Shown here piece after piece: positions 29,186 to 54,186 of a stretch of DNA of 64,000 nucleotides. This DNA comes from Eubacteriaceae bacterium. GTDB taxonomy: Bacteria; Bacillota; Clostridia; Eubacteriales; Anaerofustaceae. The notes under the pieces are model-generated. The model ran no database searches. It was not told where the DNA came from and saw only the letters and a program-made list of their open reading frames with translations. A program made the position numbers and the translations under genes. Every line of letters starts with the position of its first letter. Position 1 is the first letter of the stretch. The stretch is taken from the NCBI GenBank assembly GCA_009782875.1, contig WRIE01000001.1, forward strand, positions 124,001-188,000. The letters run 5' to 3'.

Positions 29186-30481
29186 CTAAAACAACAAACC
29201 GTTAAGCACCTGCTCCACTATCAGCATCGAGCCTGCCACCCCCAGATGGGTCTTGTCGATGACATCCACATAACCCATGCTCGGAAGCGCGTTCTCAACA
29301 CCGACAAAACGAAAACCGGCGCCGACCAGTCGCGATATCGTCGCCCCTGAAGCAAAAACCAGCTCGCTTTCGCCATCTGACATTATGTCCCGGCCAAGCA
29401 GCCCGGACAACCCATGTGCAGCCAGCAGCTCTTCAGTTTTGTGGCGCATGCCATCCATCTCGGGGCAAAAAACGCAGGCTGCCTGTGGCAACATGCCGAA
29501 ATAGCCTATGAAAAACTTGAAATAGGCATAAATTTCAGAGTATGTGCCTTCTACAGCGACCCTGGCTCCCCTGGGAAGCCCCACAGACGACGCCAATCGC
29601 CAGACATGCATATAGGCTGCAGCCCTTGCCCGCCCGCAGTCTTCCAAAGCGGGTCCAGGATCTGCGCCAAGCCTGGCGCAGATGTCGACGACAAAATCTT
29701 CAGTCGGGCCAAAACCGATTGGAGGGCCGTCGCATAGCATATACGCAGTCCCCAGCGTATCCTCCAAATACTTCGCGGCTCTAATCCCGTACTCATGCCT
29801 CACAACGATATTTAACGCGGCAGCGCCAATATCCATGATTTCCTCTATTGATGAGCCGGCGCAAAGGGCGCAGTTGACTTTGATTCCGCAAAGGCCAAGC
29901 AGGCGTTTCAACTCAGCCAGGTCCCCTTTGAAGTATTTCTGGAAAAGGGACAGGCCAAGCAAATTCACGGTTTTATCAACAACGGGTTTTTTTTGCGGGT
30001 TTAGCGTCTCAAGCAAAGCCAGCGCTCCGGTTTCAAATCCGGCGCAAATGTCAGTTGAGTAGCCGGGTGTCTCTAGGAGGACAGCATCGATATCGCTAAA
30101 AACGTTGTTTACTATGCCTTCCAAATCATCCCCGATAAGCGCAGCCCCTGGCGTGTTTACAATAGCAAGCAATTTATGGTTGGGCAGTTTTTCTTTGATG
30201 TATTCAAGGCCTTCGACAAGCTTGTCCCTGCCGCCATATATGTAGTCCCCGCTGTCAAGGAAAGTGCTGGGGATGCGGGATTGTCCGAAGAAAAACCTTT
30301 CATTGAAGTTCAACGGGTCAAACTGCTTTTGGCGCAGAATCTGCCTCTCGCTGATCCCGGAGTGGTAATACCTGCAGCCAGTGGGGCCATTGAGGAGCAC
30401 TACACTGCCTGCAACTCCTTCAAGGGCGAAGAGCGCCCCTGAGATGCCGTCAGGAGTAATACTGGTTAAATAATCGTTCAT
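29186..30481 (-). CDS. NifK/BchB-like nitrogenase-superfamily subunit
   Basis: A 431-residue protein of the oxidoreductase component 1 superfamily (NifD/NifK/BchN/BchB/CfbD). Near the N-terminus, ISGALFALEG-AGSVVLLNGPTGC aligns with the P-cluster region of NifK, but only Cys36 (GPTGC) is kept. The upstream Cys is Gly, and the third position (IVNTPGAALIGDDL, about 107-120) has no Cys. A later Cys cluster occurs in LCGIKVNCALCAG. GDDLEGI matches the conserved IGDDL turn. The gene starts 32 bases inside the fused NifH-NifD gene, so translation is coupled and the two probably form a heterocomplex. It lacks the residues expected for a full eight-iron P-cluster, pointing to a BchNB/CfbD-like four-iron site shared with its partner. 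Confidence 0.85.
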   Translation of the reverse strand: MNDYLTSITPDGISGALFALEGVAGSVVLLNGPTGCRYYHSGISERQILRQKQFDPLNFNERFFFGQSRIPSTFLDSGDYIYGGRDKLVEGLEYIKEKLPNHKLLAIVNTPGAALIGDDLEGIVNNVFSDIDAVLLETPGYSTDICAGFETGALALLETLNPQKKPVVDKTVNLLGLSLFQKYFKGDLAELKRLLGLCGIKVNCALCAGSSIEEIMDIGAAALNIVVRHEYGIRAAKYLEDTLGTAYMLCDGPPIGFGPTEDFVVDICARLGADPGPALEDCGRARAAAYMHVWRLASSVGLPRGARVAVEGTYSEIYAYFKFFIGYFGMLPQAACVFCPEMDGMRHKTEELLAAHGLSGLLGRDIMSDGESELVFASGATISRLVGAGFRFVGVENALPSMGYVDVIDKTHLGVAGSMLIVEQVLNGLLF

Positions 30482-32669
30482 CGTTCTCCCACTCTCCTCT
30501 CAAGCCCAGAGCCAAAAGGCCTGCCCAGCGCTCTATATAATCAAGGCCTGCAAAGAAGCCGGTGTCATGGACCATTTGCAGCGCGTCAACCACAGCCACT
30601 TCGCTGGGCGCGTTTGATGTGTAATTGCTAAGCAGGATATCAGGCTTGAGCAGAGCAATATCGGCCTCCCGTTTGCTGATATCGTAATCCTCTTCGATAA
30701 AGAACCCATCGGATATCTTTGTCCTGAATCCCTCGTCGCTTGATGACTTGATTATGCATAGCTTCGCTATCTCGATCCCCGAGTCGACAGCCGCGCCGAG
30801 GAGCCAGTCGAGGTCATGGCTGTATGTGACAACCATCAACCGCTTGCCTTCCAAAGAAGCCCTCAGCCTGCTGGTCGCTTTCTCATAGCGTTCCTTGTTT
30901 AGGGCGACAATCGACTCTGCCACATCTTGTTTCCCGTAGATGCCGCCAATCTCTCTTAGCCAATCCACTGTGTCGCCAAAACCTATCGGAAGTTTTCGGC
31001 CGAAGAATTTGGCCCCGAACTCAGTTTCAAAAAAGCCTTTTAGCTGTCTAGTGGAATAGTCGTCATTTGCCAGCAAGTTCAGCGCAGCCTTGTTGAAGCC
31101 TGCAAGGCTCTCATAATCTGTTTCGCATAAAAAGCGGCAGTTCACCTTCACACCCATTGCCAAAAGATAGCCTTCCACAGCCTCAAACAATTCCGGGGTG
31201 TTTCTATAGCTTGGCCGTTCGAAAAGAATGTTGACTAGGTTCTCCTCCGGCTGGACTCGTGTGTCGATAACTTGCCTTGCAAGCTCGATGTAGCTCATCA
31301 TAGTGCCCTGGGAGTAATCCCCGGTCATATTGCCGTCTGCCTTCAAGGTGAATATCGGCGTGCCGGCATTGCCTAAAGCCCTGGCTTGGTCAATGTCATC
31401 CCCGATAATCCCTGAGGGGCATGCGCTCGCAATGATGATAGCCTTTGGTTTTCCTGCCATAACCTCGGCAACCTTTTGCTCAAGCTTCTCCATTCCCCCA
31501 AAAACCATTTCCGGCTCTCCCATGTCGGTAGCCACTAAGTTGGGGGATACAGATGAAGGCAACAGGGAGCCCCTCTCGAAGAGCCGCCTCCTGCCTGTGC
31601 CGCCCATCCCGTTGTAGGAGATATACACGCAGCTTTTGGGGGCATGCGCAATCACTACTGCATCCCTTATCTGGGTCGCCACATACAATGCGCCATTAAA
31701 AGCGCAACTGGACAACGCTTCCCCGTTTGCGACACTTTTTGACAAGTAGCGCTTGGAGGATGAGAAGTCTAAAAAACTGTTTTTGGCCTGGGCCTCGATA
31801 CAGGCAGGCAAGTTGGCGCTAGTGGCAATATCACCCGCAATCCCTGAAGCCTCCGCCTTTTCAGAGAATGTGGCGCCCAATACGATATGCTCCAAGTCCT
31901 CATCAGAAAGGGGCCGGGCTTCATGCTTCTGTACCCCGTTTATGACTGCTTTGGCAAGCAGGTCAAAAATGATAGCCTCGGGGCACTTAGGGCTGGACTC
32001 TGCAAGTGTCATGTTTTTCGCTTCTGCTTCCATAAATGCGCTAGACCGGGGTATGTCTGCGATTACTGGCAGCCCTACAGCCGAGCAAAACGCCTGTACC
32101 CGGTCTGCCTCATCATCAATTCCCCGGCGGTTTAGGATGACACCGCCCACACGAGCCTGGCTGCCATCATAGTTGCGTATTCCCCGCAAGATATTGTTTG
32201 CGGCGTAAAGGGCCATAAACTCCCCTGATGTGACGATAAAAATCGTGTCAGCATACTCCCGGCGGATTGGCACTGCGAAGCCGCCGCAGACAACATCGCC
32301 AAGGACATCATACATTGTGGCGTCATACCTTCCTTTAAGCTGGAAAGTCGACAGGAGCTCAAACAAGCTGATGATGCCCCGCCCGGCGCAACCTACCCCC
32401 GGCTGGGGGCCGCCCGCCTCTATGCATCCCACGCCTGCGAAACCTGTAGCTAAAATAGCGTTTAAGTTGTAATCTGGCGGGTTTGTGTTTCTCATATAGT
32501 CAAGGGCTGTATCAAGCCTCCTTCCACCAAGCAGCAGCCGTGTGGAGTCGTGCTTGGGATCGCACCCGATTTGGAGCACACTGCTGCCGTTCATTGACAT
32601 TGCGGCAGAAAGATTGGCAGCCACAGTGGATTTGCCGATTCCGCCCTTGCCATAAATTGCTATTTCCAT
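30450..32669 (-). CDS. NifH-NifD-like fusion protein (nitrogenase-like reductase)
   Basis: A 739-residue fusion. Residues 1 to about 245 are a NifH/BchL/CfbC-type reductase: P-loop GKGGIGKST (7-15), CDPKHDST (36-43), Cys94 in PGVGCAGRG and Cys128 in DVVCGGFAVPIR, the two ligands of the dimer-bridging 4Fe-4S cluster. After a linker (about 250-310), residues about 310-739 are a NifD/BchN-like half. It has three cysteines at the P-cluster positions: Cys322 (SSCAFNGAL), Cys347 (HAPKSC) and Cys417 (SACPSGIIGDD). Such proteins use ATP-driven electron transfer to reduce a difficult substrate. NifH and NifD are normally separate, so the fusion is unusual. The start is ATG 32669 (GAGAGG upstream); an upstream TTG at 32687 is the alternative. 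No NifB/NifEN genes are in the window, so nitrogen fixation is unlikely. Confidence 0.88.
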   Translation of the reverse strand: MEIAIYGKGGIGKSTVAANLSAAMSMNGSSVLQIGCDPKHDSTRLLLGGRRLDTALDYMRNTNPPDYNLNAILATGFAGVGCIEAGGPQPGVGCAGRGIISLFELLSTFQLKGRYDATMYDVLGDVVCGGFAVPIRREYADTIFIVTSGEFMALYAANNILRGIRNYDGSQARVGGVILNRRGIDDEADRVQAFCSAVGLPVIADIPRSSAFMEAEAKNMTLAESSPKCPEAIIFDLLAKAVINGVQKHEARPLSDEDLEHIVLGATFSEKAEASGIAGDIATSANLPACIEAQAKNSFLDFSSSKRYLSKSVANGEALSSCAFNGALYVATQIRDAVVIAHAPKSCVYISYNGMGGTGRRRLFERGSLLPSSVSPNLVATDMGEPEMVFGGMEKLEQKVAEVMAGKPKAIIIASACPSGIIGDDIDQARALGNAGTPIFTLKADGNMTGDYSQGTMMSYIELARQVIDTRVQPEENLVNILFERPSYRNTPELFEAVEGYLLAMGVKVNCRFLCETDYESLAGFNKAALNLLANDDYSTRQLKGFFETEFGAKFFGRKLPIGFGDTVDWLREIGGIYGKQDVAESIVALNKERYEKATSRLRASLEGKRLMVVTYSHDLDWLLGAAVDSGIEIAKLCIIKSSSDEGFRTKISDGFFIEEDYDISKREADIALLKPDILLSNYTSNAPSEVAVVDALQMVHDTGFFAGLDYIERWAGLLALGLRGEWENDERLFNQYYS

Positions 32670-32687: not shown

Positions 32688-34610
32688 TCAAGCAGAGCGC
32701 ACAGAACCGGAAACGATCTGCACCAAATGCTCTGCGTTCAAGTCCTCTATCCGGTAGTAGTCAGCGCACATGGCCTCGGCAATCTTCTCTGCCAAACCAA
32801 GGCGTATAAAATCATTTTCAGTATCCACAACCACGCTTTTGATGCCCCTAATGGCGATCTGGTTGGCAAGCGCGTAGACTTCCTCCATAGGTTTCGCTGT
32901 TTTATCAGATGAGTTTGCGCGCCCGTCAGTGACAAGCACCAATACGGGCAGGATGTCTTTGTCTTTTAGGCGCTCCACCAGTATCGTGTCCAGCGCCAAT
33001 TCCAAGCCCTTGGCCATCGGTGTGCGGCCGCCTGTGGGCAATTCAGCCAAGCGTTTTTGGGCAAGCTCCACGCTGCGGGTGATGCTGAGCAGAGTCTCGG
33101 CGGAATCGTGGCGGAAAGCTATCATCCCCACTTTGTCCCTTTTTTGGTAAGAGTCATTCAGCAGGGAGCAAATAGCCCCTTTTACAGCCCTCATCCGCTG
33201 GTTGGCCCCCATGGAGCCGCTGGCGTCCACAGCGAAGATGATTGTATTGCCAGTGCGTTTCTCGCGGATCTTTTCCCTGAAATCAGAGTTTCTCACTGCG
33301 ATGGCCATGCCATTTTTCTCCCGGGTCTTTTGATGCACAGCCGCTGCCCTGATAGTGGCGTCAAAGGCCAAGTCAGTGGTTTTCCCTTTAGGGAACGCAG
33401 CCCGCACATACCTTCCTTGGCCTGATGTGGTTTTAAGCACATTGCGCCTGCCGCTGCCCTTGTTGATAGAGCGCACAACAGATTCGCTTATCCAAGGGAA
33501 CACATCAAAAGTCTCGCCGATTTCTTGCACATCTTCATCATCGACAGGTGGCGGGGGAGGCAAATCTGGCGGCAGCGGCTGGTTGTCAATCTCTTCTGCG
33601 TCATCTTGGCTGTCCTCGTCGTCCTGGTCATCTACTTGCTCATCCTCTTCGGGCATTTCCTCAGGCGGAGGGGGAGGCGGGTCTTCTGGCCCTTCCTGGT
33701 CTTCGAGCTCTTTGGGCTCCTCCATCTCTTCCATCGGCGGATCCTCTTCTTGTACATAATGGGCATTGTCCCGCACCCTGTGTGGCAGGGCATAAAGCGC
33801 CGCTGTCTGTATGTCCTCGGTGTTCAGCATAATGCGCCCGTCAAGGGCTGCGATAGCCTTCGCTGCCTCTATGATGCAGATCTCCGCCCTGTGGCCTGCG
33901 CAGTTGGAGCGGGCGGACAATGAGGAGGCGAGTTTCATTGCATTCTCGCTAGCCTCGATTTTCTCAAGGTTTTTTGCCGCAATCGCAATCCGGCTTGCCA
34001 GTTTTTCCTGGTCAGCCTCCCATCGCTTCATAAAAGCGGCGCTGTCCCGCTCATAACTGATGCGCCTCTTGATTATCTCTGCCCGGTCATTGGGGTTTTG
34101 CTCCCCCCTAATTTCCACATACAACCCGAAACGGTCTAAAAACTGCGGGCGCAGTTTGCCTTCCTCCGGGTTCATGCTTCCCACCAGCACGAAATTTGAC
34201 CGGTAGGAATATGAAATGCCCTCCCTTTCAACGTTGGCTTTGCCGGAAGCTGCGCTTTCCAAGAGGCTGTTGATTATAAAGTCGCTAAGAAGGTTCACTT
34301 CATCGATATACAGGATGTTGCCATCTGCAGCCGCCAGGATCCCCGGCTCGAAACTTCTTGTGCCTTCCCGGATAGCGGCTTTCAAGTCGATGGAGCCGAT
34401 AAGCCTATCCTCTGTGATATTCAATGGCAGCTCAACGATCTTCATACCGCCCATTAAATCAGCCAATCCCCTGGCGACAGTGGATTTGGCTGTGCCTTTC
34501 TGGCCGCTCAGCAAAACACCGCCGATCCTTGGATTGATCGCATTCCACAATAGGGCGTTTTTCATCTCGTCTTGGCCGAGAATAGCGGTAAACGGAAATA
34601 CTTGCCTCAT
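32688..34610 (-). CDS. chlD: ChlD/BchD-type chelatase subunit (AAA+ plus VWA)
   Basis: A 640-residue protein. The N-terminal AAA+ domain (about 1-285) has Walker A GQKGTAKST (36-44), Walker B ILYIDEVNLL (99-108) and the ChlI-like FEPGILAAADGN insert. A Pro/Glu/Asp-rich linker (about 290-365) leads to a C-terminal VWA domain with MIDAS DASGSM (about 462-467), TGGRTPMAKGL and LVTDGRANSS. In Mg-chelatase and cobaltochelatase this subunit couples ATPase motor rings to the large chelatase subunit. Its ATG overlaps the stop of the CobN-like gene 2 (ATGA), so it is translationally coupled. Unlike many ChlD proteins, its Walker motifs look intact. Partners are the ChlI-like protein at 53087 and the two CobN-like subunits. 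Confidence 0.9.
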   Translation of the reverse strand: MRQVFPFTAILGQDEMKNALLWNAINPRIGGVLLSGQKGTAKSTVARGLADLMGGMKIVELPLNITEDRLIGSIDLKAAIREGTRSFEPGILAAADGNILYIDEVNLLSDFIINSLLESAASGKANVEREGISYSYRSNFVLVGSMNPEEGKLRPQFLDRFGLYVEIRGEQNPNDRAEIIKRRISYERDSAAFMKRWEADQEKLASRIAIAAKNLEKIEASENAMKLASSLSARSNCAGHRAEICIIEAAKAIAALDGRIMLNTEDIQTAALYALPHRVRDNAHYVQEEDPPMEEMEEPKELEDQEGPEDPPPPPPEEMPEEDEQVDDQDDEDSQDDAEEIDNQPLPPDLPPPPPVDDEDVQEIGETFDVFPWISESVVRSINKGSGRRNVLKTTSGQGRYVRAAFPKGKTTDLAFDATIRAAAVHQKTREKNGMAIAVRNSDFREKIREKRTGNTIIFAVDASGSMGANQRMRAVKGAICSLLNDSYQKRDKVGMIAFRHDSAETLLSITRSVELAQKRLAELPTGGRTPMAKGLELALDTILVERLKDKDILPVLVLVTDGRANSSDKTAKPMEEVYALANQIAIRGIKSVVVDTENDFIRLGLAEKIAEAMCADYYRIEDLNAEHLVQIVSGSVRSA

Positions 34611-37600
34611 TGTATAACCTCCGTTTTGCCTAAAAATTCGTCTATTTCCTTCAAATTGCGTTTCCAGACATCAACTTTGTCATCAGCGATGATTTCAATC
34701 CCGCCGCCTTGGATTTCGCCACCTACTAAGAACAACCCATCTTCCATGTCTCCTTCGATCTGCAGGTAAGCGTCTTTCAGGGCTTTGAGGACCGCAGGGT
34801 CGCCATCCCATTTGCCCCGCTCGCCCAGCTCGATGAAACGGCGGGACACCTCTTCCAAGGCGAACCTGTTCTCTTTGGAAAACCACTCCCGGACATGCTC
34901 ATCAAGGACGTATTCTTCCACAAGCCTGTCTATGGCGCTGTCTCCAACAACCCCAGACAAAACCTGCAGGGTGAACACATTGTGCACAAAACCCATGATA
35001 GCCGCTGCCCCGTCGTAGCCCTCCTCGAGGATATTCTTCTTCCAGATTGGGTTGAACAGCGTCTCCGCCATGTTTTCAGCTATCTTTTCTTCCAGCCCCA
35101 TGACTGCGATGCGCCCTGCCTTTTCAGTGGAGCCTTGGTATGCCTTCGCATTTTTGCCCCCATAGGCTTTGGCTATAAGCCCAAACCCTCCTGTGACACC
35201 AGCTGAGAAGCCTGCATTCAGGACGTTGTACCTTTTCGTCATGGTCAAGTCGTAGGTCACATCAGTGTTTTTGGCGCTGGCGACAAACTCGGCCACTGAG
35301 CGCTGCCCGTCCAGCCCCCTGCCGTAAGCGTGGGCGGATGCTTCAATGAAGTAGCGTATCAAGTCGTTCTCGCTATTCCATGCGCTCGCTTTTAATGCTA
35401 GATCGATATTGGCCCCGTATGAGCCAGGAGCGTCGCCAAAAATACGCACAGCTGCGCGCCGTTCGGCATCTTCCACTCCCGCAGCGCTTAGTTCGCCAAG
35501 AAGGGCCAGGCTGTGTTTCCTGACATAGTTAGTGTCTTCCCCTTCCTCCAGGTTCGCAGCCAACATGGCAGCGTCATCCAACAAAGCGACGATTTCCGGC
35601 CATGAATCCCGCAGGATTCCAGAGATGCGCACAGTGACGTCAATCCGTGGGCGGCCGAGCTCATGGAGCGGAATGGCTTCCAGTCCAGTGACCTTGCCTG
35701 AGCTGTCCCAGATAGGCTTTATGCCCATCAAACTCATCATCTGCGACATTTGCTCCCCTTTGGAGACAGTCACATCTGTGGAGATCATATTCATAGCAAT
35801 CTGCTCTGGAAAAACCCCTTCTTCTTCCAGGTATTTATCAACCAGCGCATTGGCAAGCTGCTCGCCTATGCTGTAGGCGGTTTGGGTTGGTATGCGCGCT
35901 GAGTCAGATGTGAACATGTTGCGCCCTGTAGGGATGAATTCCCTGCCGTTGTTGTCCGGCGCGCCAAAAATCCCCGGTGGTATGTAGCCTCCGGACAAGC
36001 CGGAGAAGAGGCTGTCCATTTCTTGGCTGGCAAGGGTCAACTTGGCCTTTATATCCCTAATGTCTGCGTCCGGCAAGGGACCTGCCTCTTTTGCGGACAG
36101 TTCATCGATATAAGCGGCAACGCCATCCGCATCGGGGGCGCGTCCAAAAACATGCCGCTTGGAGATAGCCGGGCTAGACGCAGCGCTGGCCAGCAATTGG
36201 CTTACAAGCGAAATTCCCGCAGCCGGATCTTCCTCAGCATCAAACATGGCAAGCAATTCGGGCAGCGCAGACAACTCTTTTTTGATGCTGCCAAAAATCG
36301 CGTCTGCCTGTGCTGTCCCGGTCTCGGAAGCTTGCCTGTGTTCCTCAATCAACCTAGAAAGCTGTTTATACTCATCCCTGGCTCCGCTGGCGATTGAAGG
36401 CATATGGTCGACAATAGCCCCAAATGCCCGCCGTTTGGCCACGACAGCCTCTCCGGGCACTGCGCTGTTGTAGATATATAGGTTCGGCAGGCTCCCAAGG
36501 GCTATCACAGGCCAACAGTCCTCAGAAAGAGCGCTGGATTTGCCGGGCAAGAAGTCCATGGATCCGTGTGTACCCACATTCACAATGGCATCAGCCTTTA
36601 TGCCGTGCTGGATATGCCAAAATGTCGCTAAATACTGGTGCGGGGGAGGGCAGAGGGGGTCTTGGAGTATCTTGCAGACCTCTCCAGTGCACTTGGCCCC
36701 ATAGCAGCCACGTTTCGGCTCCACAAACAGGCTGATGTTGCCAAACTCTAATCCAGTGATGATGAGGCTATCGCCTTCAACCATCCCTTCCCCTGGCGGA
36801 GGGCCATACAACTCCTCTATCTTTGCGCGGTTTGCGCCAGACAGCTGGGAGTACCAAACATCGTACTCTTCAAGGCCCATTTTGTGCAGAGCCCCTCCAG
36901 AGGCGATAATGTCCTCTACACTAGTCCATCTGAAGTCGCTGATAGCTTTTGTATCCAAGATGAGGTTCTTAAGGGCTCCTCCGTTTTCAGGGATATTTTC
37001 AAGTGTGTAGCCCTCATCCTGCATGCGCCTCATAATCTGGACAACACTTTCAAAGCTGTCCAGCTGGTAAGCCGCGCCAATTGTTGCCTCAACACCTGAG
37101 CAAGGGGCGTTGTGCATAATTAATGCGATGCGTTTGTCTGAATTGGCCTTTTTTCTTAAGCCCACCCATTTGGCCGCCCTTTCGGCGAAATTGCTTATGC
37201 CGCCCTTGATGGGGACGGGTTTATCCTGGGCATCCTTCGCGCCTATAAAAACCGGTTCTATCATCCCCTGTATTTCTGGGGTCATATAGCTCCAAGCCAT
37301 CTCGGCTGATATTGGGTGGGCTTCTTTTTGCCAATTGTCCACAGTGCAAAAGTACGATGCTATAGGCTTTATCACGGGCATATCCAGCTTCCCGTAAAAG
37401 CTTGCCGCTGCCTCAAATGAGCTTTCTGGCGAGGTTGTTGCAGCTGCGAAATGCATCCGGTTGACAAAAGCATCGATTACTGGCGCCCCCTGCTCGCAGA
37501 AAAGATCCTCGAATATTGCCTCAAAACTGCGGTCGGCATCGGTATTTTCTGTAAAGCCGCATATGAGGCTGATGCCATGGCCCAGAAGCTCTGTGGCCAA

Positions 37601-38170
37601 ACTCGCCTCAATGGCAGACTCTTCACGCTCCCAGGAGCTCCTATGGCACAGCAGCCCTATCGCGGGCAAGCTTGTATCCTCGCCATCGGCTTTCCTCCAC
37701 TCCTTGTAGGCGCTGTAATTGGCAAACACCTCATGGGAGACGGGGGAGAAGATCCCGTCATGGGGCAGAATTTTTGGCGGAGGCGGCGCCGGCGCGCCAA
37801 AGTAGGCGCTGGCGATGTAGGCTACCATGTTTTGGATATTTTCCCTAATCCCGTTTGACATGTATTTATATACTTGGCTAATAATGGCGCCATCAGCTGT
37901 TGCAACCCCCAAAACTGCCGTCTCCCCGTCAAGCGGGATAATCCTCGCTTCGGGATATTCGCCTTTTATCCGTAGGTAAGCTGCCTTGCGCGCTTCATTT
38001 GCCTGGTTGTCGCTCAACAGCAGGCAGGCATCCGGCCAGCTCTCCAAGATATCGAAAATCTTGCCGTTTTCCACATCCCGCAGCGGGACGGCAACCCCCC
38101 CTGCCTCGGCGAAGATATCTCCAAGATACTGGGAAGCGCCTGCCAACACCATCCTAAATTGTCCTTGCAT
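34607..38170 (-). CDS. cobN: CobN/BchH-type chelatase large subunit, paralogue 2
   Basis: An 1187-residue soluble protein of the CobN/BchH/ChlH family, which binds a tetrapyrrole and inserts a divalent metal (Co in CobN, Mg in BchH). Family landmarks are AIVNVGTHGSMDFLPGK (about 528-544), the following ALSEDCWPVIALGSLPNLYI, the GRPRIDVTVRISGILRD segment and GAPGSYG-type turns near the C-terminus (GDAPGSYGANID). It is divergent from paralogue 1: the first 130 residues differ strongly, and it has a Cys-rich stretch PKRGCYGAKCTGEVCKI (about 485-501) just before the active-site motif, which paralogue 1 lacks. That stretch could bind metal or a cluster. GGAGGCAAAA precedes ATG 38170, 12 bases after the paralogue 1 stop. 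Confidence 0.88.
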   Translation of the reverse strand: MQGQFRMVLAGASQYLGDIFAEAGGVAVPLRDVENGKIFDILESWPDACLLLSDNQANEARKAAYLRIKGEYPEARIIPLDGETAVLGVATADGAIISQVYKYMSNGIRENIQNMVAYIASAYFGAPAPPPPKILPHDGIFSPVSHEVFANYSAYKEWRKADGEDTSLPAIGLLCHRSSWEREESAIEASLATELLGHGISLICGFTENTDADRSFEAIFEDLFCEQGAPVIDAFVNRMHFAAATTSPESSFEAAASFYGKLDMPVIKPIASYFCTVDNWQKEAHPISAEMAWSYMTPEIQGMIEPVFIGAKDAQDKPVPIKGGISNFAERAAKWVGLRKKANSDKRIALIMHNAPCSGVEATIGAAYQLDSFESVVQIMRRMQDEGYTLENIPENGGALKNLILDTKAISDFRWTSVEDIIASGGALHKMGLEEYDVWYSQLSGANRAKIEELYGPPPGEGMVEGDSLIITGLEFGNISLFVEPKRGCYGAKCTGEVCKILQDPLCPPPHQYLATFWHIQHGIKADAIVNVGTHGSMDFLPGKSSALSEDCWPVIALGSLPNLYIYNSAVPGEAVVAKRRAFGAIVDHMPSIASGARDEYKQLSRLIEEHRQASETGTAQADAIFGSIKKELSALPELLAMFDAEEDPAAGISLVSQLLASAASSPAISKRHVFGRAPDADGVAAYIDELSAKEAGPLPDADIRDIKAKLTLASQEMDSLFSGLSGGYIPPGIFGAPDNNGREFIPTGRNMFTSDSARIPTQTAYSIGEQLANALVDKYLEEEGVFPEQIAMNMISTDVTVSKGEQMSQMMSLMGIKPIWDSSGKVTGLEAIPLHELGRPRIDVTVRISGILRDSWPEIVALLDDAAMLAANLEEGEDTNYVRKHSLALLGELSAAGVEDAERRAAVRIFGDAPGSYGANIDLALKASAWNSENDLIRYFIEASAHAYGRGLDGQRSVAEFVASAKNTDVTYDLTMTKRYNVLNAGFSAGVTGGFGLIAKAYGGKNAKAYQGSTEKAGRIAVMGLEEKIAENMAETLFNPIWKKNILEEGYDGAAAIMGFVHNVFTLQVLSGVVGDSAIDRLVEEYVLDEHVREWFSKENRFALEEVSRRFIELGERGKWDGDPAVLKALKDAYLQIEGDMEDGLFLVGGEIQGGGIEIIADDKVDVWKRNLKEIDEFLGKTEVIQ

Positions 38171-38181: not shown

Positions 38182-41100
38182 CTAGAGCGCTTCTTCTATC
38201 GCGCCTTCCGCCTCAATATATATTTCTCTCAGCTTTTCAAGCATATCCTCGTCGGCTTCCCACATGCCTCTCTGGGCAGCCTCAAGGAGCCGCTCAACAA
38301 TGGCATGGACAGCCCAAGGGTTGACCTCTTTCATCCACTCCCTGTTCTCGTCGTCTAAGACATACCTTTGGGTGATCGCGTCATACATCCACTTGTCTAT
38401 GTTGTCGGCAGTGGCAGACCAGCCAAATACAAACTCTACCATGTGGGATATTTCCTGCGCCCCCTTGTACCCATGTTGTTTCAAGCCCTCGATCCACTTA
38501 GGGTTGTTGATCCTGCCCCGCATTACCCGGGCAGTGTCCTCAGTGAGGTTGTATGTCTCGATATGGTCCACATCCCCTGTCTGTGTCGAGTAACTTGCCG
38601 GCAGGGAACCGCTGGAAGCCTTCACTGCTGCGATAAGCCCCCCGTGGTAGATGTAGTAGTCGTCATCGTCTATCATGTCGGACTCGACAGATGCGATATT
38701 CTTGATTGTCACTGTTGTCTTTGAAAGGCGTGTGGCAAATTGGTCTTGGTACTTGTCCCCATGGAGTTTTCGGGTATAGGCATGCCCGCTCCAAGTTATG
38801 TAGATATTGCCTAAATCATTGCTGTCATTCCACTTCTTGCTTTGCACCAGAGTGTCCACCCCGGCCCCATATGTCCCCGGCGGGCACCCAAACACCCGCG
38901 CTGAGGCGCGCTCGTAGGCTTGCTCCCGGCTCATGCCTTCAGCTGCCATCTGGGCGATCTCCTCATCGATATGTTTTCTGACGTAATTCATGTTATGGGG
39001 CTCGTCTGATGCCGCTGCCAAGTTCACAGCGTCCTCAATGCGCTCTATCAAGTTGGGGAAAGTGTCCCTGAAAAGCCCGCTGATCCGAAGCACCGCATCG
39101 ATCCTGGGACGCCCAAGCTCCTCGATGGGAATCGTCTCCATGCCTATGACCCTGTCGGTGTTGCCCAGCCAGACCGGCCTTATGCCCATCAGGTTCAAGG
39201 CTTCCGCCAAATCTTCGCCCATGGTTTTCATCGTGTCGCCTGCGTATACGACAATAGCCACCGATTCCGGGTATTTTCCAGAGTCGGCCAGCTCCCTGTC
39301 AATGACTTGCCTAGCCAGCTCGCTGCCTACCCGGTAGGCTGTCCTTGAGGGGATAGCGCCTGGGTCCACAGAGTAGAAATTCCTGCCTGTGGGCAAAACC
39401 GAAGCTTTGCCGCGGCTTGGGCTTCCGGATGGCCCAGGCGGGATGAACTCGCCTTTGACGCCTTTTACAAAGTTGCCGATCTCGTCTGTTATGCGTTTCA
39501 AGTTGGGCGCTAGAAAGCCGCAAATGAACGAGGCCAGCTCCTTTTGCATAGGGCTATCAAACAAGTCCACACACCCGGGGAGATAGCCGTTTTCTGCGAT
39601 TTTATTAATAAACGCCTGGCCTTCCCCGTCTATGTCCTCTAGAAGCATCCTGTTTGTCTTGCCCAGGTCGCCTTCCAAAAGGCTTGCCGGGTTGGCAAGG
39701 ATAAACTCCAAGTCATAACCGTGGATCTCGCATATGGATTCCCGCAGCGAAGGGACATCCCCGTTTCGCACCCGGGAAATAAGCCTGCAAAGGTTGCTGA
39801 AGCGCTCGCCCTCTTGCACTTGGCCGAGGATATGCAGCCCGTCCTTGATTTCAAACGCCTTGATATTGGAAATCCACAGATGCATCGCCTCGACGAAAGC
39901 GTCCATAGACTCGCTGTCCATGCCAGGCTTTTCTGTAATAGCCAAATCCTGGTCCAGCTTTAATTCAACGGCCAGCTCCCATATCTGCTCGTAGATGATA
40001 GGCAGCCTGGCTGGCGCGCTTTGGCGGGTCTTGTAATAGTTGTCAATCAAGTCGTCCATTTCCGACAACTCCTCGTAAACGCCGCTAGGAACAAACGATG
40101 GGATCATATGGCCAATGAGGGTGGCATATGAGCGCCTCTTCGCTTGCATGCCTTCCCCCATAATCGAAATGTTATACACATACAAATGCGGCATAGTGCC
40201 AATCGCCAAATCCGGGTAGCAGCTTTCAGACAGCGCGATTTCCTTGCCGGGCAGCCACTCTATAGTTCCGTGGGTCCCCACATGTACGATGACATCCGCT
40301 TTAAACACACGCTCTATCCAATGGTAATAGGCGATATATTGGTGGGGGCAGACAAAATCTGTGGAATGGTATGCCTCCTCCGCTTTTTCCTCAAAAGCTC
40401 GGGGCGGCTGCAGCCCAATAAAGATATTTCCGTTTATGATGCCCGGTATTGGGATCTTGCCGCCTACAGCCATGAACTCCCCTGGCGGCTCTCCCCAATC
40501 CTCGACCATCTTGGCTTGGACTGTGTCGCTGAATTCGTCAAACCAGCTTTTATAAAGGTTGGCTGGAACAAAATCAACCGCCCTTTCCAGCACTTCCTCT
40601 TCAGGCAGCCATCTGCCGTCGTTGGATAGGCCGTTTATGATTTTGTCAATTATATCGGCGCCGTCTTCAAAATTGTAATCAACCGAAATGCCTTCATCTT
40701 TTAGCGCGTTAACCATGTTATAGACGGAAACCGGCGTGTCAAGGCCATATGCGCAGCCTATTGTGTCGTTTCTGGGCGGGATGTTGTGGAAAATGATTGC
40801 GACTTTTTTCTCGCTGGCAGGGGTGTCGCGCAGCTTTGCCCAATTGACGGCAAGTTTGCACAATTTGGCGACCCGCTCCATAATGGGCACAAAAATTACC
40901 CGCTCCCCATATTGCGTCTCTTCAACTTCCCGGGTGCAACATGGGAATGAGGTCATCTGCCCGTCAAACTCAGGCTGGTAGACATTGCTCGAGAGCATCA
41001 TGGAATCAAGCCCCGCTAGGCTCTCGCGCCATTGGCCATAGGTGTAGTAGGTCGTCATAGCCTGTATCACCGGAACCCCCAGGGGCTCAAAAATGCTGCC

Positions 41101-41919
41101 TTCAATAGTTGTCGAGCCGTCTCCGGGGGAGGAGAGCACCGTCACAGACATCCCTGTTGTGTTTACCAAGGTGTTGATTATCGGCTTTCCATCTTCCATA
41201 AAGAAGCGCTCCAATGCCTGGGCCAATGGGTACTCTTCTGTGTTTTCCGGAGGGATCACATTGCTGACCAGGACAATAGGGAAGGCCCCCGCATCAATGA
41301 GCCCTTCATAAATGGCATCTGTTGTGGACATGTCCTCCCCGCGCAGCTTGTGCTCGTGGACCAGCACGCCAACTTTCAACTTTCCGGAAGCCTTGGCCGC
41401 ATCCAAGTACCTGTCTGGATCGGCGACAGGCCCTTCAGGTGTATACAAGCACTGCCACTTGCCGAAGAATGGCTCTGGGGCATCATATCTTCTATTGCAA
41501 AACTCGTTGGCGGAGTATAGGATCATAGACATATAGTTGTCAACCCCGCTTGCCCGTATGTACCTGTCTATTTGCGAATACTGGGCAATGCCCATCGAGA
41601 GCGTATCAAAGATAGCCTCTATCTCGCCTTCCATGCCCGAGCGGGCGAATATGGGCTTTTTGCCTCCAAAGCGCTCCATGTACTCTTTGAAAGCCCGAAA
41701 ATGCGTGACACCGCTATGGAAATCCATATAGGTGAGGCTGGCGCCCTCTGAATATTCGAAAAGTTCTGCTAGCAATCCATCGTCGTTGTCGATTTTTGCG
41801 CATTCGTAGCTTTTAATTTTAAATTGCCCGGGATAGGCTTCCTCCAAGTTTGCAGCCACTTGGCCATAAAAAGCGCTGTCCGAGCTGTGCTGGTTGATAA
41901 AAACTATGTTGCAGCTCAT
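38182..41919 (-). CDS. cobN: CobN/BchH-type chelatase large subunit, paralogue 1
   Basis: A 1245-residue protein of the CobN/BchH family, the usual length. Landmarks are VIVHVGTHGTIEWLPGK (about 543-559), ALSESCYPDLAIGTMPHLYV, LPTGRNFYSVDPGAIPSRTA, GRPRIDAVLRISGLFRDTFP and FGCPPGTYGAGVDTLVQSKKW, all strongly conserved in cobaltochelatase-type large subunits. It is closer to classical CobN than paralogue 2. Its ATG overlaps the stop of the ABC ATPase gene (ATGA), with AGGAGGTG upstream. In the aerobic B12 pathway CobN acts with CobS/CobT; many organisms use ChlI/ChlD instead, as here. The presence of two large subunits implies two substrates, or a hetero-assembly. Confidence 0.9.
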   Translation of the reverse strand: MSCNIVFINQHSSDSAFYGQVAANLEEAYPGQFKIKSYECAKIDNDDGLLAELFEYSEGASLTYMDFHSGVTHFRAFKEYMERFGGKKPIFARSGMEGEIEAIFDTLSMGIAQYSQIDRYIRASGVDNYMSMILYSANEFCNRRYDAPEPFFGKWQCLYTPEGPVADPDRYLDAAKASGKLKVGVLVHEHKLRGEDMSTTDAIYEGLIDAGAFPIVLVSNVIPPENTEEYPLAQALERFFMEDGKPIINTLVNTTGMSVTVLSSPGDGSTTIEGSIFEPLGVPVIQAMTTYYTYGQWRESLAGLDSMMLSSNVYQPEFDGQMTSFPCCTREVEETQYGERVIFVPIMERVAKLCKLAVNWAKLRDTPASEKKVAIIFHNIPPRNDTIGCAYGLDTPVSVYNMVNALKDEGISVDYNFEDGADIIDKIINGLSNDGRWLPEEEVLERAVDFVPANLYKSWFDEFSDTVQAKMVEDWGEPPGEFMAVGGKIPIPGIINGNIFIGLQPPRAFEEKAEEAYHSTDFVCPHQYIAYYHWIERVFKADVIVHVGTHGTIEWLPGKEIALSESCYPDLAIGTMPHLYVYNISIMGEGMQAKRRSYATLIGHMIPSFVPSGVYEELSEMDDLIDNYYKTRQSAPARLPIIYEQIWELAVELKLDQDLAITEKPGMDSESMDAFVEAMHLWISNIKAFEIKDGLHILGQVQEGERFSNLCRLISRVRNGDVPSLRESICEIHGYDLEFILANPASLLEGDLGKTNRMLLEDIDGEGQAFINKIAENGYLPGCVDLFDSPMQKELASFICGFLAPNLKRITDEIGNFVKGVKGEFIPPGPSGSPSRGKASVLPTGRNFYSVDPGAIPSRTAYRVGSELARQVIDRELADSGKYPESVAIVVYAGDTMKTMGEDLAEALNLMGIRPVWLGNTDRVIGMETIPIEELGRPRIDAVLRISGLFRDTFPNLIERIEDAVNLAAASDEPHNMNYVRKHIDEEIAQMAAEGMSREQAYERASARVFGCPPGTYGAGVDTLVQSKKWNDSNDLGNIYITWSGHAYTRKLHGDKYQDQFATRLSKTTVTIKNIASVESDMIDDDDYYIYHGGLIAAVKASSGSLPASYSTQTGDVDHIETYNLTEDTARVMRGRINNPKWIEGLKQHGYKGAQEISHMVEFVFGWSATADNIDKWMYDAITQRYVLDDENREWMKEVNPWAVHAIVERLLEAAQRGMWEADEDMLEKLREIYIEAEGAIEEAL

Positions 41920-43121
41920 GCAAACACCTCCTGTTTACTTTCTTTTAGGAGCCTAGCCAACTCTGTCGCATCGTCGCAATAGATAGGCTGGCAATCCCCT
42001 TGATATACGCTGTTTTTCTCGTCCCTCATGGAATAGACCTTCTTGCCGTCATCCATAGCCTTCTTAAGCAGCTGGGCATTGGCATCGTTCATAGCCCCGA
42101 TAGGAAAACCAGTGTCGATGATAATAGGGTGTTCATCCATCACCCCGCAAGCTTCTTTGAATGTGGCGGGGGAGATAGGCATAAAATCAGCCTCCAAAAC
42201 CAAGTGGTTGCAAAGCGCTTTTGCGACATGTGTGTCGATGTCGCTCAAGTGCAGGACACCGCAGTCCATGCCCATTCCTGCCCGGCTCAAAGCCCTCATC
42301 ACAGGGATTCCTGTGCCCGCTCCGGATACTACAAACATGTTGCTTGTGGCATGCCTGCCAAACTCCAGGCTTCCAAGGAGGTCGTCATACCTGGCTTGTG
42401 ATATATTGTACAAATCTTGTATCACCCCTTGGTGGATAATACTTTCCGGGGGGCCGCTCGCCACGACTTTGCCGTCTTTGACCAGCAGCACTGTCTGGCA
42501 GCCTTTGATCGCAAGGTCTATGTCATGCAGAGCCATAATGACTGTAATGCCCTTTTCCCGGCAGAGCTTTGCCAAGATCTCCACCACATCGACCCTGTGG
42601 CTGATATCCAGATGGCTTGTGGGCTCATCCAAAACTATCAGCTCCGGCTCTTGGGCAAGCGCCCGGGCGATCATGACCTTCTGTTTCTCGCCGTCGCTTA
42701 ATTCCCCGTAGTAGCGCTGGGCCAAATGGAAGGCTTTTACGCTTTCAAGCGCTTGCTTCACGATGAGTTTGTCATTGTCCCCGAGCTTGCCAAAGAAGCC
42801 GGTATACGGGTGCCTGCCCATTGCGGCTATCTCAAAAGCCGTCATAAGGCCGGGCTGGAGCTTTTCTGTCAATACCACAGCCATCCGCTTTGCAAGCTTG
42901 GCCTTGGGGACAGCCATAATATCATTTCCGTCAAGGTACACAGTCCCTTCGACAGGGCTGAGCATGCTTGACAAAGTGCGCAGTATCGTTGATTTGCCTG
43001 CCCCGTTGGGGCCAAGCAGGCAAATCATCCCTCCGCGCATAGCATTGATGTCGATGCCTTCGACAACAGTGTGTTTGTTATATCCAACTTTGAGCGATTG
43101 TGTTTGTAAAACTGCACTCAT
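41916..43121 (-). CDS. ABC importer ATPase (FecE/BtuD type) with C-terminal extension
   Basis: A 401-residue protein. Residues about 1-255 are a siderophore/B12-type importer ATPase: Walker A GPNGAGKST, Q-loop, signature LSDGEKQKVMIARAL, Walker B LIVLDEPTSHLD and H-loop MALHDIDLA. Residues about 260-401 are an extra domain (MFVVSGAGTGIPVMRALSRA; GVLHLSDIDTHVAKALC; IIIDTGFPIGAMNDANAQLL) with alternating strands and helices, seen in some archaeal and clostridial ATPases of this type but of unknown role. The start is ATG 43121 (TAAGGAGGAA upstream); the frame continues open to 43352 only because it runs through a decayed permease. It is the only ATPase for all binding proteins and permeases in the cluster. 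Confidence 0.88.
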   Translation of the reverse strand: MSAVLQTQSLKVGYNKHTVVEGIDINAMRGGMICLLGPNGAGKSTILRTLSSMLSPVEGTVYLDGNDIMAVPKAKLAKRMAVVLTEKLQPGLMTAFEIAAMGRHPYTGFFGKLGDNDKLIVKQALESVKAFHLAQRYYGELSDGEKQKVMIARALAQEPELIVLDEPTSHLDISHRVDVVEILAKLCREKGITVIMALHDIDLAIKGCQTVLLVKDGKVVASGPPESIIHQGVIQDLYNISQARYDDLLGSLEFGRHATSNMFVVSGAGTGIPVMRALSRAGMGMDCGVLHLSDIDTHVAKALCNHLVLEADFMPISPATFKEACGVMDEHPIIIDTGFPIGAMNDANAQLLKKAMDDGKKVYSMRDEKNSVYQGDCQPIYCDDATELARLLKESKQEVFA

Positions 43122-43124
43122 AGC

Positions 43125-43380
43125 GTTCTGTTCCTCCTTAAGAGCATGTATGCCATCAGAACAAGGGCAGTGATGGCGCCGATTGGCAACTCGTCGTAGA
43201 GCCTGGGCAGCAAAGCCGCAAGGGCACAGGAGAAGTGATAAAACGATTACAACGCCTTTAACTGCGGCTTTTCCAGGTGAAACCAATCTCTCGAAGCTGC
43301 CCATGGCACACTTGGTGCATATTGTGAAAGCGAAGCGGATCCTGGCTTGCAAACGCGGCCAGGACGCTTCAGGCTGAAGA
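43125..43380 (-). pseudogene. FecCD-type permease remnant fused into the binding-protein end
   Basis: Fragments of the permease are recognisable by alignment to the intact copies at 47433 and 48573. The TMWTMGSFGGFTWEK region appears as TICTKCAMGSFERL around 43290-43320, and the C-terminal RELPIASITALVGAPLMVYMLL region is reflected at DNA level around 43140-43200 (plus strand AGCATGTATGCCATCAGAAC). Large internal deletions remove most of the gene. The 5' side is joined to the truncated end of the binding-protein gene at about 43385. Confidence 0.75.
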
Positions 43381-44356
43381 GCACTTGGGCGTCCTCCACT
43401 ATTGGCGCCATTTCAGCCAAGGCTTTATAGCTTGGCACGTAGTTTTTGTTTGAGGAATACATCCAAATGTCAGCATCAGCCAAAATCGTGTAAAATTCCT
43501 CCAGGCTTATCTGGGAGCTGCTTGCCCCTTCAAAATACAGGTATTCCCCCCCAGCGGCCCGCACTTGGCGGGCAACAAAAGAGTCAGTGCCTGGCGAATA
43601 CACAACGCCGTTGTAAACCATCGCCCAAACAACTTTTGGCTTTTCCTTGCCAGCGACCAATGCCTCCATTTGGGCCAAACGCCCGGCCTGTTCGTCCACA
43701 TAGCTTAGCGCCTCCTCTTCGTAGCCAAAGAAAGAAGCCAGGAACTTCGTCCATTCCATCCTGCCCTCATGTGATTCTTCCATGTACTCATTGTCTACAG
43801 CGACTGGAATCCCCAGCTGTGTCAACATGTTGATAACATCTGTCTGGCCAGATGGCCCTGTATAGACAAAGGCTACCTCCGGGTTGATTTCCTGTATCAA
43901 TTCGTAATCCGGGGTGTTGGCGCTGCCGATGTATTTGACTTTCCCTGAAGCAAGCGCCTGCTCTATATTGGCGACATTGCCCCATGTGCCTGCATCAGAA
44001 GTCACGCCTCCCACATAATCCATCAGGCCTTCATAGTGGGCAACCATCCCCACCTGGGTAATAGAGAAGAACACCGCACGCTCTACAGGGGTAAATAGCA
44101 GCGTTGCGCTTCCATGGCCCTCTGGCGGCTCATTTCCCCTGGGCACCAACAGGAATTCTTGGCCTTCCGCGTCAATGACGAGTTTTGCGCCATCCTCCAA
44201 ATATTCCACAGAAAAGCTGGAGGTGTGCTCGACCCTCATGTAAGTCGACTCCCGTTCGCTGGGTGTTTGTGTTTGGCTTTGAGGCTTGGCGCATGATGCA
44301 GCCAGAGCCACGATAATTAAAAGTATTGTTATTGCCGATGCTTTTCTTTTCTTCAT
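43247..44356 (-). CDS. Siderophore/B12-type binding lipoprotein, C-terminus replaced
   Basis: A substrate-binding protein (PF01497-like fold) with lipobox ALAASC (Cys about residue 23) and the same layout as its paralogues: FSVEYLEDGAKLVIDAEG, LLVPRGN, AVFFSITQVGMVAHYEGLMD, EINPEVAFVYTGPSGQTDVI and MYSSNKNYVPSYKAL. After about residue 320 (IVEDAQVLFSL) it leaves homology and reads out-of-frame permease-remnant DNA to a stop at 43247. The roughly 45 C-terminal residues present in the paralogues (NRNVWQFD ... FHPDVFEG) are lost. It is probably non-functional or impaired. The start is ATG 44356 (GAGGTGG upstream). Confidence 0.75.
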   Translation of the reverse strand: MKKRKASAITILLIIVALAASCAKPQSQTQTPSERESTYMRVEHTSSFSVEYLEDGAKLVIDAEGQEFLLVPRGNEPPEGHGSATLLFTPVERAVFFSITQVGMVAHYEGLMDYVGGVTSDAGTWGNVANIEQALASGKVKYIGSANTPDYELIQEINPEVAFVYTGPSGQTDVINMLTQLGIPVAVDNEYMEESHEGRMEWTKFLASFFGYEEEALSYVDEQAGRLAQMEALVAGKEKPKVVWAMVYNGVVYSPGTDSFVARQVRAAGGEYLYFEGASSSQISLEEFYTILADADIWMYSSNKNYVPSYKALAEMAPIVEDAQVLFSLKRPGRVCKPGSASLSQYAPSVPWAASRDWFHLEKPQLKAL

Positions 44357-44439
44357 TTTGATTTCCACCTCTAAAACAAAGTTCTTTCTTGTCGGTCATG
44401 GAACAATGCGCTTGCTGGCGCAATGCTCCTTTTCAAGGA

Positions 44440-44865
44440 GCATGAAGGAACGTAGTAGCGAGCGGCCAAGGACGCTTCTGGCTGAAGAACACTGACATCC
44501 TGCCATCATCCTGATGGCCAGCAGCGCCATAGCGCCCTTGGCCTTCTTTGGGATGCAAGGGCCACAGCAATCACCACTACACTGGCGCCAGCCAGGGAGC
44601 TTAAAAACATAAACAGAGATGTCTATCTGCTATATCCTTCATGTAGCCCGCCAAGCAGGGCGATGTTTGCAAACATAGCCGATCAGGAGCTGGTTTCCAG
44701 TATATAGGGCTCCTAGGCAAGCGGATATACATTTGGGCCGCTGGCAGCCTCGCAAAGGGCTATATTGAGTAAAACATGAATATGGGCGCTGCTATGGGTA
44801 TTGCGAAGAACACCCTGTAGAGCCCTTGTGCTCTCTATAGCCGAAATACATAGCTGCCCTTTATT
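44440..44865 (-). pseudogene. FecCD-type permease remnant
   Basis: The DNA matches the N-terminal and middle parts of the intact permease genes. Around 44470-44600, plus-strand words such as CTGAAGAACA...CTGCCATCATCC...GGGATGCAAGGGCCACAGCAATCA follow the 48573 gene; around 44640-44820, GCCAAGCAGGGCGATG...GAGCTGG and GGGCTATATTGAG are conserved. Stops and indels occur throughout and no long frame survives. It follows the binding-protein pseudogene at 44890-45971, in the usual binding protein-permease order. Confidence 0.8.
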
Positions 44866-44889
44866 CCGCCTCCTCCGCTACCGGATGGC

Positions 44890-45971
44890 AGTGGAGGATT
44901 TCATACCCTTTATACACATCCGGATGGAAGATGGCAGCCAAGTCGATGTATGTCTGACTCATTTATTTTCATCCAGTAATATTCGTCAAACTGCCATACG
45001 TTGCGGTTGACCACCACTGGGGTGTCAACTGCCACTGGGGCAAGCTCAAGGAGAGCATTGTAGCTTGGCATATAATTCACGTTTGACGGGTAGATCCAAA
45101 TATCTGCCTCAGCCAAAGTTGTGTAGAATTCCTCCAGGCTGATCTGGGCGCTGCCTGCCCCTGGGATGTAGGAAAATATATAGCCCCCCCCTGCCGAGCG
45201 CACAGCATTGGCCACATATGGCTCGTAGCCCGGCACGTACACAATGCCGGCGCGGACCAGGCTTGTCCAGGCCAGCAACCAGCGCCTCCATCTGGGCCAA
45301 GCGCTCAAGCTGGCCTTCCACATAGCTGACAGCCTCCTCTTCGTAGCCGAAAAAAACTGCCAGGAACTTCGTCCATTCCATCCTGCCCATTCGGGTTTCT
45401 TCCATATACTCGTTGTCCACAGCCACAGGGATCCCCAGTTGGACCAGCATGTTGACGAGGTCTGTCTGGCCTGAAGGCCCTGTGTAGACAAAGGCGATCT
45501 CCGTGTCGATTTCCTGCACCAGCTCATAGTCGGGCGAGTTTTGATTGCCTACGTATTTAATTTTTCCCGATGCCATATATTCTTCGATGTTTTTGAGGCC
45601 CCCCAAGTGCCTGCATCGGCAGACACCCCGGCAAAATAATCCAAAATGCCGTCATAATGGGATATCATGCCCACTTGGGTGGTTGAGAACGAAACCGCCC
45701 TTTCAACAGGGGTGTAGAGCAATATAGCATCCTCATATCCTTCAGGCGCCGCTTCTCCCCTGGGCACCAGCAAGAATTTTTGGTCGTCCGCATCAGTGGG
45801 CAGTTTTGCGCCATCCTCCAAATATTCGAGGGAAAAGGCGTTTGAATGCTCGACTTTCATAAAGTTGCTGCTGGCTTCCCCCGGGCCGGCGCCAGTGTCC
45901 ACTGCAGCTATGCAAGAAGACAGCAACAGTATGAGTGCAGTTAAAAAGGCAAATATGGTCTTTTTAAGCAT
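44890..45971 (-). pseudogene. Siderophore/B12-type binding lipoprotein, frameshifted
   Basis: It starts at ATG 45971 with a good lipoprotein signal (LTALILLLSSC). It is intact to about residue 122 (GVSADAGTWG), where a frameshift near 45603 moves to a second frame (LKNIEEYMASGKIKYVG ... ALVAGLDKP). A second shift near 45255 moves to a third frame (AGIVYVPGYEPYVANAVR ... NRNVWQFDEYYW). A last change near 44950 loses the C-terminal VFEG tail frame. Overall similarity to its paralogues is high, so decay is recent. Confidence 0.88.
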
Positions 45972-46089
45972 GTTGGGCCCCACAGTATCCTGCTGGATTT
46001 CTGTATCCCTCTTGGCCACTGCCGCCTAGCGCGCAAGGCGCACAGGCCAAGGCAGCTGCTTTATATCTGGCCATGCCATCAATGTCCTT

Positions 46090-46250
46090 TCTTCATTTTT
46101 TCATTTTGCCAAAGGTTGGCTCGAAATTATTTCGCAACCATGCCCGGATTAATACAAGCCCGGGCGCTGCATGTCCACACTATCAGCAATACTCGCTAAA
46201 CAGCTTAACATTGCGGTTTGCCCAAACTTGGGCGTTTTGGGCTATTCTAT
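46090..46250 (-). pseudogene. Remnant of a binding-protein 3' end
   Basis: The spacer contains ATTGCGGTTTGCCC (46205-46218), which matches the codons for the NRNVWQFD region near the 3' end of the binding-protein genes (plus-strand ATTGCGGTT / ATTGCCGTTTGCC). The same word recurs near 50912 and 51862, in other spacers. These are scars of further deleted copies. Confidence 0.5.
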
Positions 46251-46252
46251 AT

Positions 46253-47383: not shown

Positions 47384-47432
47384 TTCATCAATTTCCCTAC
47401 TTCTGCCTGGCAATTATCAAATTTAAATGTGC

Positions 47433-48464: not shown

Positions 48465-48479
48465 AGCTACTCCTTGTCC

Positions 48480-48550
48480 GCCCCATCCACAAGCGGGATG
48501 CAAATGCGGATTTCATGGTTTTTAAACGGAAGATTGCAGCCAACTTTGGG
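48480..48550 (-). pseudogene. Scar of a binding-protein gene 3' end
   Basis: Plus-strand GCGGATTTCATGG, then GGAAGATTGCAGCCAAC, parallels the 3' end of the binding-protein genes (GCGGATTTTATGG and GGAAGATGGCAGCCAAG at 49632-49678). This shows that a binding-protein gene once preceded the permease at 47433. Confidence 0.65.
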
Positions 48551-48572
48551 CGATTTTGTCTGTAAACCGCGT

Positions 48573-49604: not shown

Positions 49605-49606
49605 AG

Positions 49607-50743: not shown

Positions 50744-50779
50744 GCCATCCATGTCCTTTCTTTATTTTGCCAAAATTGG

Positions 50780-51365: not shown

Positions 51366-51369
51366 ACTT

Positions 51370-51708: not shown

Positions 51709-51961
51709 TTCTCATATTTCCTTTCTTATTATGCTAAATAATGGTAATTATTAGCAACCTGCTGGCAGCTCTGGGTAAAAGATTGCAGCATGCCCTACCA
51801 CTTTCTTGTACGCTTTGTTTTTATATTGGTATAGCCGCCAAACATCAGCCACTAAATTGCGGTTTGCGAAAACTGGACGCTATCAGGCTGTAGATGTGGG
51901 CGCTATGGACAACATTTAGCTCATAGCCTATACTGTTTCTAGCGCAGCTTTCATCTCTAGG

Positions 51962-54127: not shown

Positions 54128-54151
54128 CGTATGTTTGCTCCTTTGCTTATG

Positions 54152-54186
54152 TAAAAAAATAGCCATGGCAAGAATCTGCCATAGCC
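54152..54186 (-). terminator. Riboswitch-linked terminator before chlI
   Basis: On the minus strand the stem GGCTATGGCA / TGCCATGGCT with a 6-base loop is followed by ATTTTTTT. It lies between riboswitch 2 and the chlI start, as expected for a transcription-terminating expression platform. Confidence 0.85.

Follow-up and report, generated by a model that had tools for sequence, protein, structure and literature searches.

The nitrogenase-like fusion gene and its locus

The window analysed in this study, the whole stretch of 64,000 nucleotides, comes from a Eubacteriaceae bacterium (assembly GCA_009782875.1, contig WRIE01000001.1, positions 124,001-188,000 of the forward strand) and carries on its minus strand a gene that joins a NifH-like and a NifD-like sequence in one chain, referred to here as HD (P0001, 739 aa, 30450..32669). 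The frame is uninterrupted from the ATG at 32669 to the stop at 30450, with a Shine-Dalgarno-like GAGAGG shortly 5' of the ATG and a possible alternative TTG start 18 nt upstream of it. Pfam places Fer4_NifH (PF00142, residues 1-263, E 4e-88) and Oxidored_nitro (PF00148, residues 322-693, E 3e-64) on the single chain, in the order NifH-type domain, disordered linker and NifD-type half, and the remaining two frames hold stops at the junction, which argues against a join of two frames. The unbroken frame, the two domains in one chain, a fused paralogue and fused homologues elsewhere bear out the preliminary description of a single-chain NifH-NifD-like fusion; the sequencing error that it had named as an alternative is ruled out by the independent fused homologues together with the intact frame. 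The predicted model of HD is of only moderate confidence (mean pLDDT 76).

The HD gene overlaps by 32 bp a gene for a NifK/BchB-like partner, K (P0002, 431 aa, 29186..30481, minus strand), assigned by PF00148 and by best sequence and fold matches to BchB. The HD/K pair comes last in a tight same-strand run, ABC ATPase-CobN-CobN-ChlD-HD-K, whose neighbouring genes either overlap or lie no more than 18 bp apart. The ChlD-like chelatase AAA+VWA subunit (32688..34610; TIGR02442 709 bits, cut-off 779) ends 18 bp before the HD ATG and is preceded by two class I chelatase large subunits, the second CobN/BchH-like (34607..38170; PF02514 905 bits) and the first a CobN (38182..41919; PF02514 1203 bits, TIGR02257 above cut-off). 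The ABC transporter ATPase (41916..43352; PF00005), of FecE/BtuD type by context, overlaps the first CobN gene by 4 bp, its real start being probably downstream of the listed TTG. Further upstream, also on the minus strand, lie tandemly arrayed genes for FecB-like binding proteins and FecCD permeases (43247..53035; PF01497, PF01032 and repeats), a ChlI-type chelatase AAA subunit (53087..54229) that scores below cut-off with both TIGR02442 (493 bits, cut-off 779) and TIGR02030 (425 bits, cut-off 467), and a CbiZ-like adenosylcobinamide amidohydrolase (56987..58126; PF01955 E 2e-55). Genes of the URO-D family are also within the window, and five tandem GPH/MFS_2 transporter genes (21881-29144, minus strand) lie directly downstream of K. 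Promoter and terminator scans gave matches no more numerous than in shuffled sequences.

Elsewhere in the genome, contig C11 carries an anaerobic corrin cluster comprised of CbiD, CbiL, CbiF, CbiG, HemA, CbiH, CbiJ (with a CysG N-terminal domain), CobA, CbiET and CbiA (locus L105, 6017-19911), and a role of the window CobN subunits in de novo B12 synthesis is unlikely since this cluster is present. Because the anaerobic corrin pathway inserts cobalt early, the window CobN subunits probably act outside de novo B12 synthesis, on another tetrapyrrole. A third CobN, 59% identical to the first CobN of the window, is found on contig C5 with a FecB-like protein (L081, 13909-19061); a URO-D family gene occurs further on at that locus, which has no nitrogenase-like gene.

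Cluster ligands and structural relationships of HD and K

The NifH-type domain (residues 2-264, 31878..32666, minus strand) was delimited by Pfam, alignment and Foldseek. Its P-loop reads GKGGIGKS (residues 7-14), and alignment identifies its cluster cysteines as C94 (32388-32390) and C128 (32286-32288), exactly the positions previously given for a complete iron-protein half. A Foldseek search with the fused model returned nitrogenase Fe proteins as top matches (40-46% identical over about 268 columns); the matches listed were Fe proteins only, and the search is therefore uninformative on the D half. The domain is followed by a predicted disordered linker (residues 266-305, 31755..31874, minus strand). 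The linker is likely a flexible tether, because the model has pLDDT <50 at residues 266-305 and because the stretch between the H and D portions (residues 262-321) ranges in length between 43 and 98 aa in the homologues and does not align.

The NifD-type half (residues 310-739, 30453..31742, minus strand) was delimited by alignment to NifD, group IV D subunits and BchN. Its ligand cysteines, C322 (31704-31706), C347 (31629-31631) and C417 (31419-31421), fall exactly where they had been placed beforehand and, like the P-loop, C94 and C128, are invariant across 15 fused homologues. The ligand alignment set the fused D and K sequences beside NifD, NifK, BchN, BchB and sampled unfused group IV pairs. 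In this alignment the three D-half cysteines match P-cluster or [4Fe-4S] ligands of NifD and BchN, and K retains one of three P-cluster cysteines: among the members aligned, Cys36 (30374-30376) occupies the position of NifK Cys95 and BchB Asp36, and the remaining two positions have no conserved Cys. At the cofactor position of NifD Cys275, none of the 13 aligned fused D halves has a Cys; the unfused group IV pairs that were sampled have all six P-cluster cysteines and the C275 equivalent. Around the cofactor ligand NifD His442 the alignment is of low certainty.

The statement that all Fe-S ligands are kept thus stands for the H and D halves but fails for the enzyme as a whole, where K lacks two of three cysteines. 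The accompanying reading of a P-cluster-type site has to be given up for the same reason, the 3+1 ligand set implying a [4Fe-4S] cluster. Since four ligands are counted, the D-K interface is predicted to hold one [4Fe-4S] cluster with three cysteines from D and one from K.

By sequence searches of the PDB, the best match of the D half is MarD (E 4e-24), with NifD and MarD nearer than BchN. The best sequence matches of K are BchB. The ten best Foldseek matches of the K model are all BchB chains, by a narrow margin (TM about 0.75 for BchB vs 0.73 for Mar and nitrogenase beta subunits), and K, with 431 aa against 536 aa, is without the C-terminal extension seen in BchB. Additionally, the D half carries a family-specific cysteine, C511 (31137-31139, by alignment), that aligns near the NifD active-site wall; the C511-R512 pair is invariant in all fused D halves and has no counterpart in NifD, BchN or group IV D subunits.

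Recurrence of the fusion and inventory of nitrogenase-like genes

A second HD fusion with a K partner, 48% identical to the window HD, is encoded on contig C20 of the same genome, where it adjoins three URO-D family methyltransferase-like genes that follow it (L006, 11411-15730 and 16567-17988; L060). HD fusions were also found in 14 other assemblies: four of the same order (G013, G014, G015, G045), six at class level (G096, G289, G404, G438, G953, G1048), two at phylum level (G641, G746), one in an Oscillospiraceae MAG (L036) that was the sole relative from a contig-level scan, and one split over contig ends (G745). The D-half query was run against 391 class and 399 phylum genomes; all intact matches with at least 35% identity were fused (frames of 730-780 aa), and unfused matches reached at most 32% identity. 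The search for unfused homologues that had been proposed thus found close relatives fused, none of them separate, and only distant sequences unfused. Every intact locus that was read has K next to the fusion. In phylogenetic trees the fused D halves form one group (100/99), as do the fused K proteins (100/100), and the fused H domains all fall to the same side of a less well supported branch (68/85). A single fusion event is the simplest, albeit unproven, reading of these trees.

Fusions of this kind have been noted previously. Dos Santos et al. 2012 described single ORFs that combine H with D/E and have a K/N-like gene after them, with Firmicutes among the sources (PMC3464626); they gave the fusions one sentence with data not shown, filtered the fused proteins from their tree and reported neither ligands nor context (PMC3464626). 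By description, the window HD-K has the same architecture. The HD fusion as an architecture has thus been in print since 2012. In the literature searched, most subscription journals excepted, there was no account of the ligand tally, the clade recurrence, the lack of NifB and of free NifH or the chelatase operon, and no paper that links CobN to a fused gene of this nitrogenase-like kind.

In the host assembly, which is 92% complete, no NifB match was obtained at E 1e-3, and NifB was likewise undetected in four other fusion-bearing genomes (G013, G096, G404, G953), which makes the fused system independent of NifB. The only PF00148 proteins in the host genome are the two HD/K pairs, with no NifEN. 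As no free NifH was found in the search of this 92% complete assembly, the fusion must itself supply the H domains. A nitrogenase or Mar-type enzyme is rejected on the ligands (one of three cysteines in K and no cofactor Cys) and on the lack of a NifB match in the 92% complete assembly. Matches to NifH alone are accordingly a poor ground for calling nitrogen fixation, the NifH domains of this host belonging to no nitrogenase.

Comparison with characterized reductases and chelatases

HD-K shares several features with DPOR (BchL-BchN-BchB) and COR (BchX-BchY-BchZ): an ATP-driven H component with a P-loop and two cluster cysteines, a set of 3+1 ligands at the predicted [4Fe-4S] position (C322, C347 and C417 with Cys36 of K), a BchB-like K, and a chelatase H-subunit gene beside the reductase genes, as in bch clusters. 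On a phototroph plasmid, for instance, a magnesium chelatase H gene lies between bchB and bchL, a comparable pairing. COR has a four-Cys ligand set. DPOR and COR differ from HD-K in having no covalent H-D fusion and, in BchB, an Asp36 where K has Cys; furthermore, the D half of HD is nearer NifD and MarD. Scores against NCBIfam models are all below cut-off (BchL 194 bits, cut-off 345; BchX 187, cut-off 331; BchB 79, cut-off 490). CfbCD is likewise an Fe-S-only tetrapyrrole reductase, and the NifH half of HD scores 305 bits with CfbC (cut-off 402); however, CfbD is a single component-1 protein, whereas HD-K has distinct D and K.

Nitrogenase NifDK is set apart by its six P-cluster cysteines, three per subunit, compared with three of three in D and one of three in K for HD-K. 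Within group IV (MarHDK, IsrHDK), MarD is the closest solved D subunit to the D half of HD, yet Mar has six P-cluster cysteines and Cys270 (PMC12552129), and HD-K lacks both features. The cluster of Mar is of the [Fe8S9C] type, and the enzyme probably depends on the NifB-like MarB (PMC12552129). As for the chelatase genes, the class I chelatases HmuS and CobN share with the window the association of FecB/FecCD transport genes with genes of the CobN family. HmuS has a membrane anchor and works independently of ATP, whereas in the present case no strongly hydrophobic segment is seen and the AAA subunits ChlD and ChlI are present; an HmuS-like heme de-chelatase is disfavoured by the missing membrane anchor and the presence of the AAA subunits.

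Proposed mechanism and candidate substrates

HD-K could well belong to the DPOR/COR type of reductase, driven by ATP and using [4Fe-4S] clusters only, with its H domain on a tether and probably a metallo-tetrapyrrole as its substrate, a reading to which we give about an even chance. Support is stronger for the cluster type than for the substrate, which is the weakest step. In the proposed mechanism, two H domains would pair and share one [4Fe-4S] cluster, and ATP binding would dock the H dimer onto the DK interface with the second [4Fe-4S] cluster (three Cys of D, one of K). Single-electron transfers would then pass to an organic substrate beside the DK cluster, with no cofactor of the P-cluster or FeMo-co type. 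By analogy with the architecture of nitrogenase and DPOR, an (HD)2K2 tetramer would hold two H domains, i.e., one dimer for two docking sites, such that one docking site per tetramer would be served at once, unless H domains pair between tetramers. The long linker would let the H dimer dock and undock yet stay attached.

On the prevailing view the nitrogenase Fe protein dissociates in every ATP cycle, and the covalent tether had been expected at the outset to alter this cycle. That expectation survives for stoichiometry, which would be constrained to two H per (HD)2K2 with no free NifH found in the host genome, whereas docking and undocking would not necessarily be prevented by a disordered linker of 43-98 aa. 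With an Fe protein unable to leave and at most two H per predicted tetramer, the HD-K clade would provide a test of full release versus mere undocking.

From the gene run in the host genome, a metallo-tetrapyrrole substrate is suggested, in this organism most likely an imported corrinoid-like metallo-tetrapyrrole handled by the CobN/ChlD/ChlI chelatase. Stated in full, and more tentatively, the reading is that a distinct, scattered clade of self-contained, Fe-S-only HD-K enzymes marked by C511-R512 may reduce a metallo-tetrapyrrole by means of a tethered ATPase, and that here, in one operon with CobN/ChlD, the enzyme may modify or demetallate an imported corrinoid-like compound as part of a so far undescribed pathway. 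Should the tetrapyrrole reading be right, HD-K would be a further nitrogenase-like tetrapyrrole reductase beside DPOR, COR and CfbCD, found in Firmicutes with no known need for one.

The gene context at other fused loci differs among genomes and fails as proof of substrate. CobN/ChlD adjacency was seen at the window locus only among the fused loci read, and the closest relative (L036) has no CobN/ChlD next to the fusion on its short contig. Two class-level genomes (G096 and G1048; L052-L053, L093-L094) have genes for ECF transporter S components and for secreted DUF4430 proteins next to HD-K, and a same-order genome (G045; L055) has DUF4430 beside HD-K. DUF4430, a domain common to transcobalamin, occurs within 5 kb of HD-K in 3 of the 12 tested genomes where 0.26 would be expected (P = 0.002, for a domain picked after the fact). 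The other neighbours comprise CobW in G641, an oligopeptide transporter in G013, a PLP enzyme in G438 with a homologue in G289, and a collagenase with an MFS gene in G404; the collagenase, the PLP enzyme and the oligopeptide transporter are uninformative on the substrate.

Some of this context would also suit a reaction at the metal centre, in which HD-K would take the cobalt of imported corrinoids from Co(II) to Co(I), or remove an upper ligand, and thereby feed URO-D family corrinoid methyltransferase-like proteins. The URO-D family genes in the window and the three beside the C20 paralogue, the nearby CbiZ and FecCD transport genes, and the DUF4430 and ECF transporter genes near the pairs of relatives all agree with such a role. 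Known ATP-dependent corrinoid activators, however, are Ram/RACE proteins unrelated to HD-K, no URO-D gene was seen at a fused locus in any other genome, and corrinoid binding by HD-K is putative; this alternative is rather unlikely. Less likely again is a small-molecule reductase that cleaves C-S bonds in the manner of the methylthio-alkane and isethionate enzymes, the chelatase genes being chance neighbours or a separate module. The match of the D half to MarD, the lack of a conserved neighbourhood and the C5 cluster of CobN and binding protein without a reductase speak for it, but the P-cluster set is reduced to four of six cysteines, the C270/C275 ligand is absent from 13 of 13 fused D halves aligned, and the genome has no NifB match, whereas Mar is thought to rely on the NifB-like MarB. 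That the fusion reflects faulty assembly or sequencing, or a gene in decay, is exceedingly improbable: frameshifts occur in transporter copies nearby, but the paralogue and the other genomes share the fused frame, the invariant ligands and the downstream K gene.

Repeats and mobile elements in the window

The five GPH/MFS_2 copies are about 76-82% identical at the DNA level and spaced by about 1.4 kb, and the copy at 25020-26164 is split by a frameshift. Decayed copies are also seen in the FecB/FecCD array, with a frameshifted binding protein at 44910-46019 and permease remnants near 44.5 and 51.1 kb. An IS1595-type transposase gene (62727-63686, minus strand) lies near the window end.
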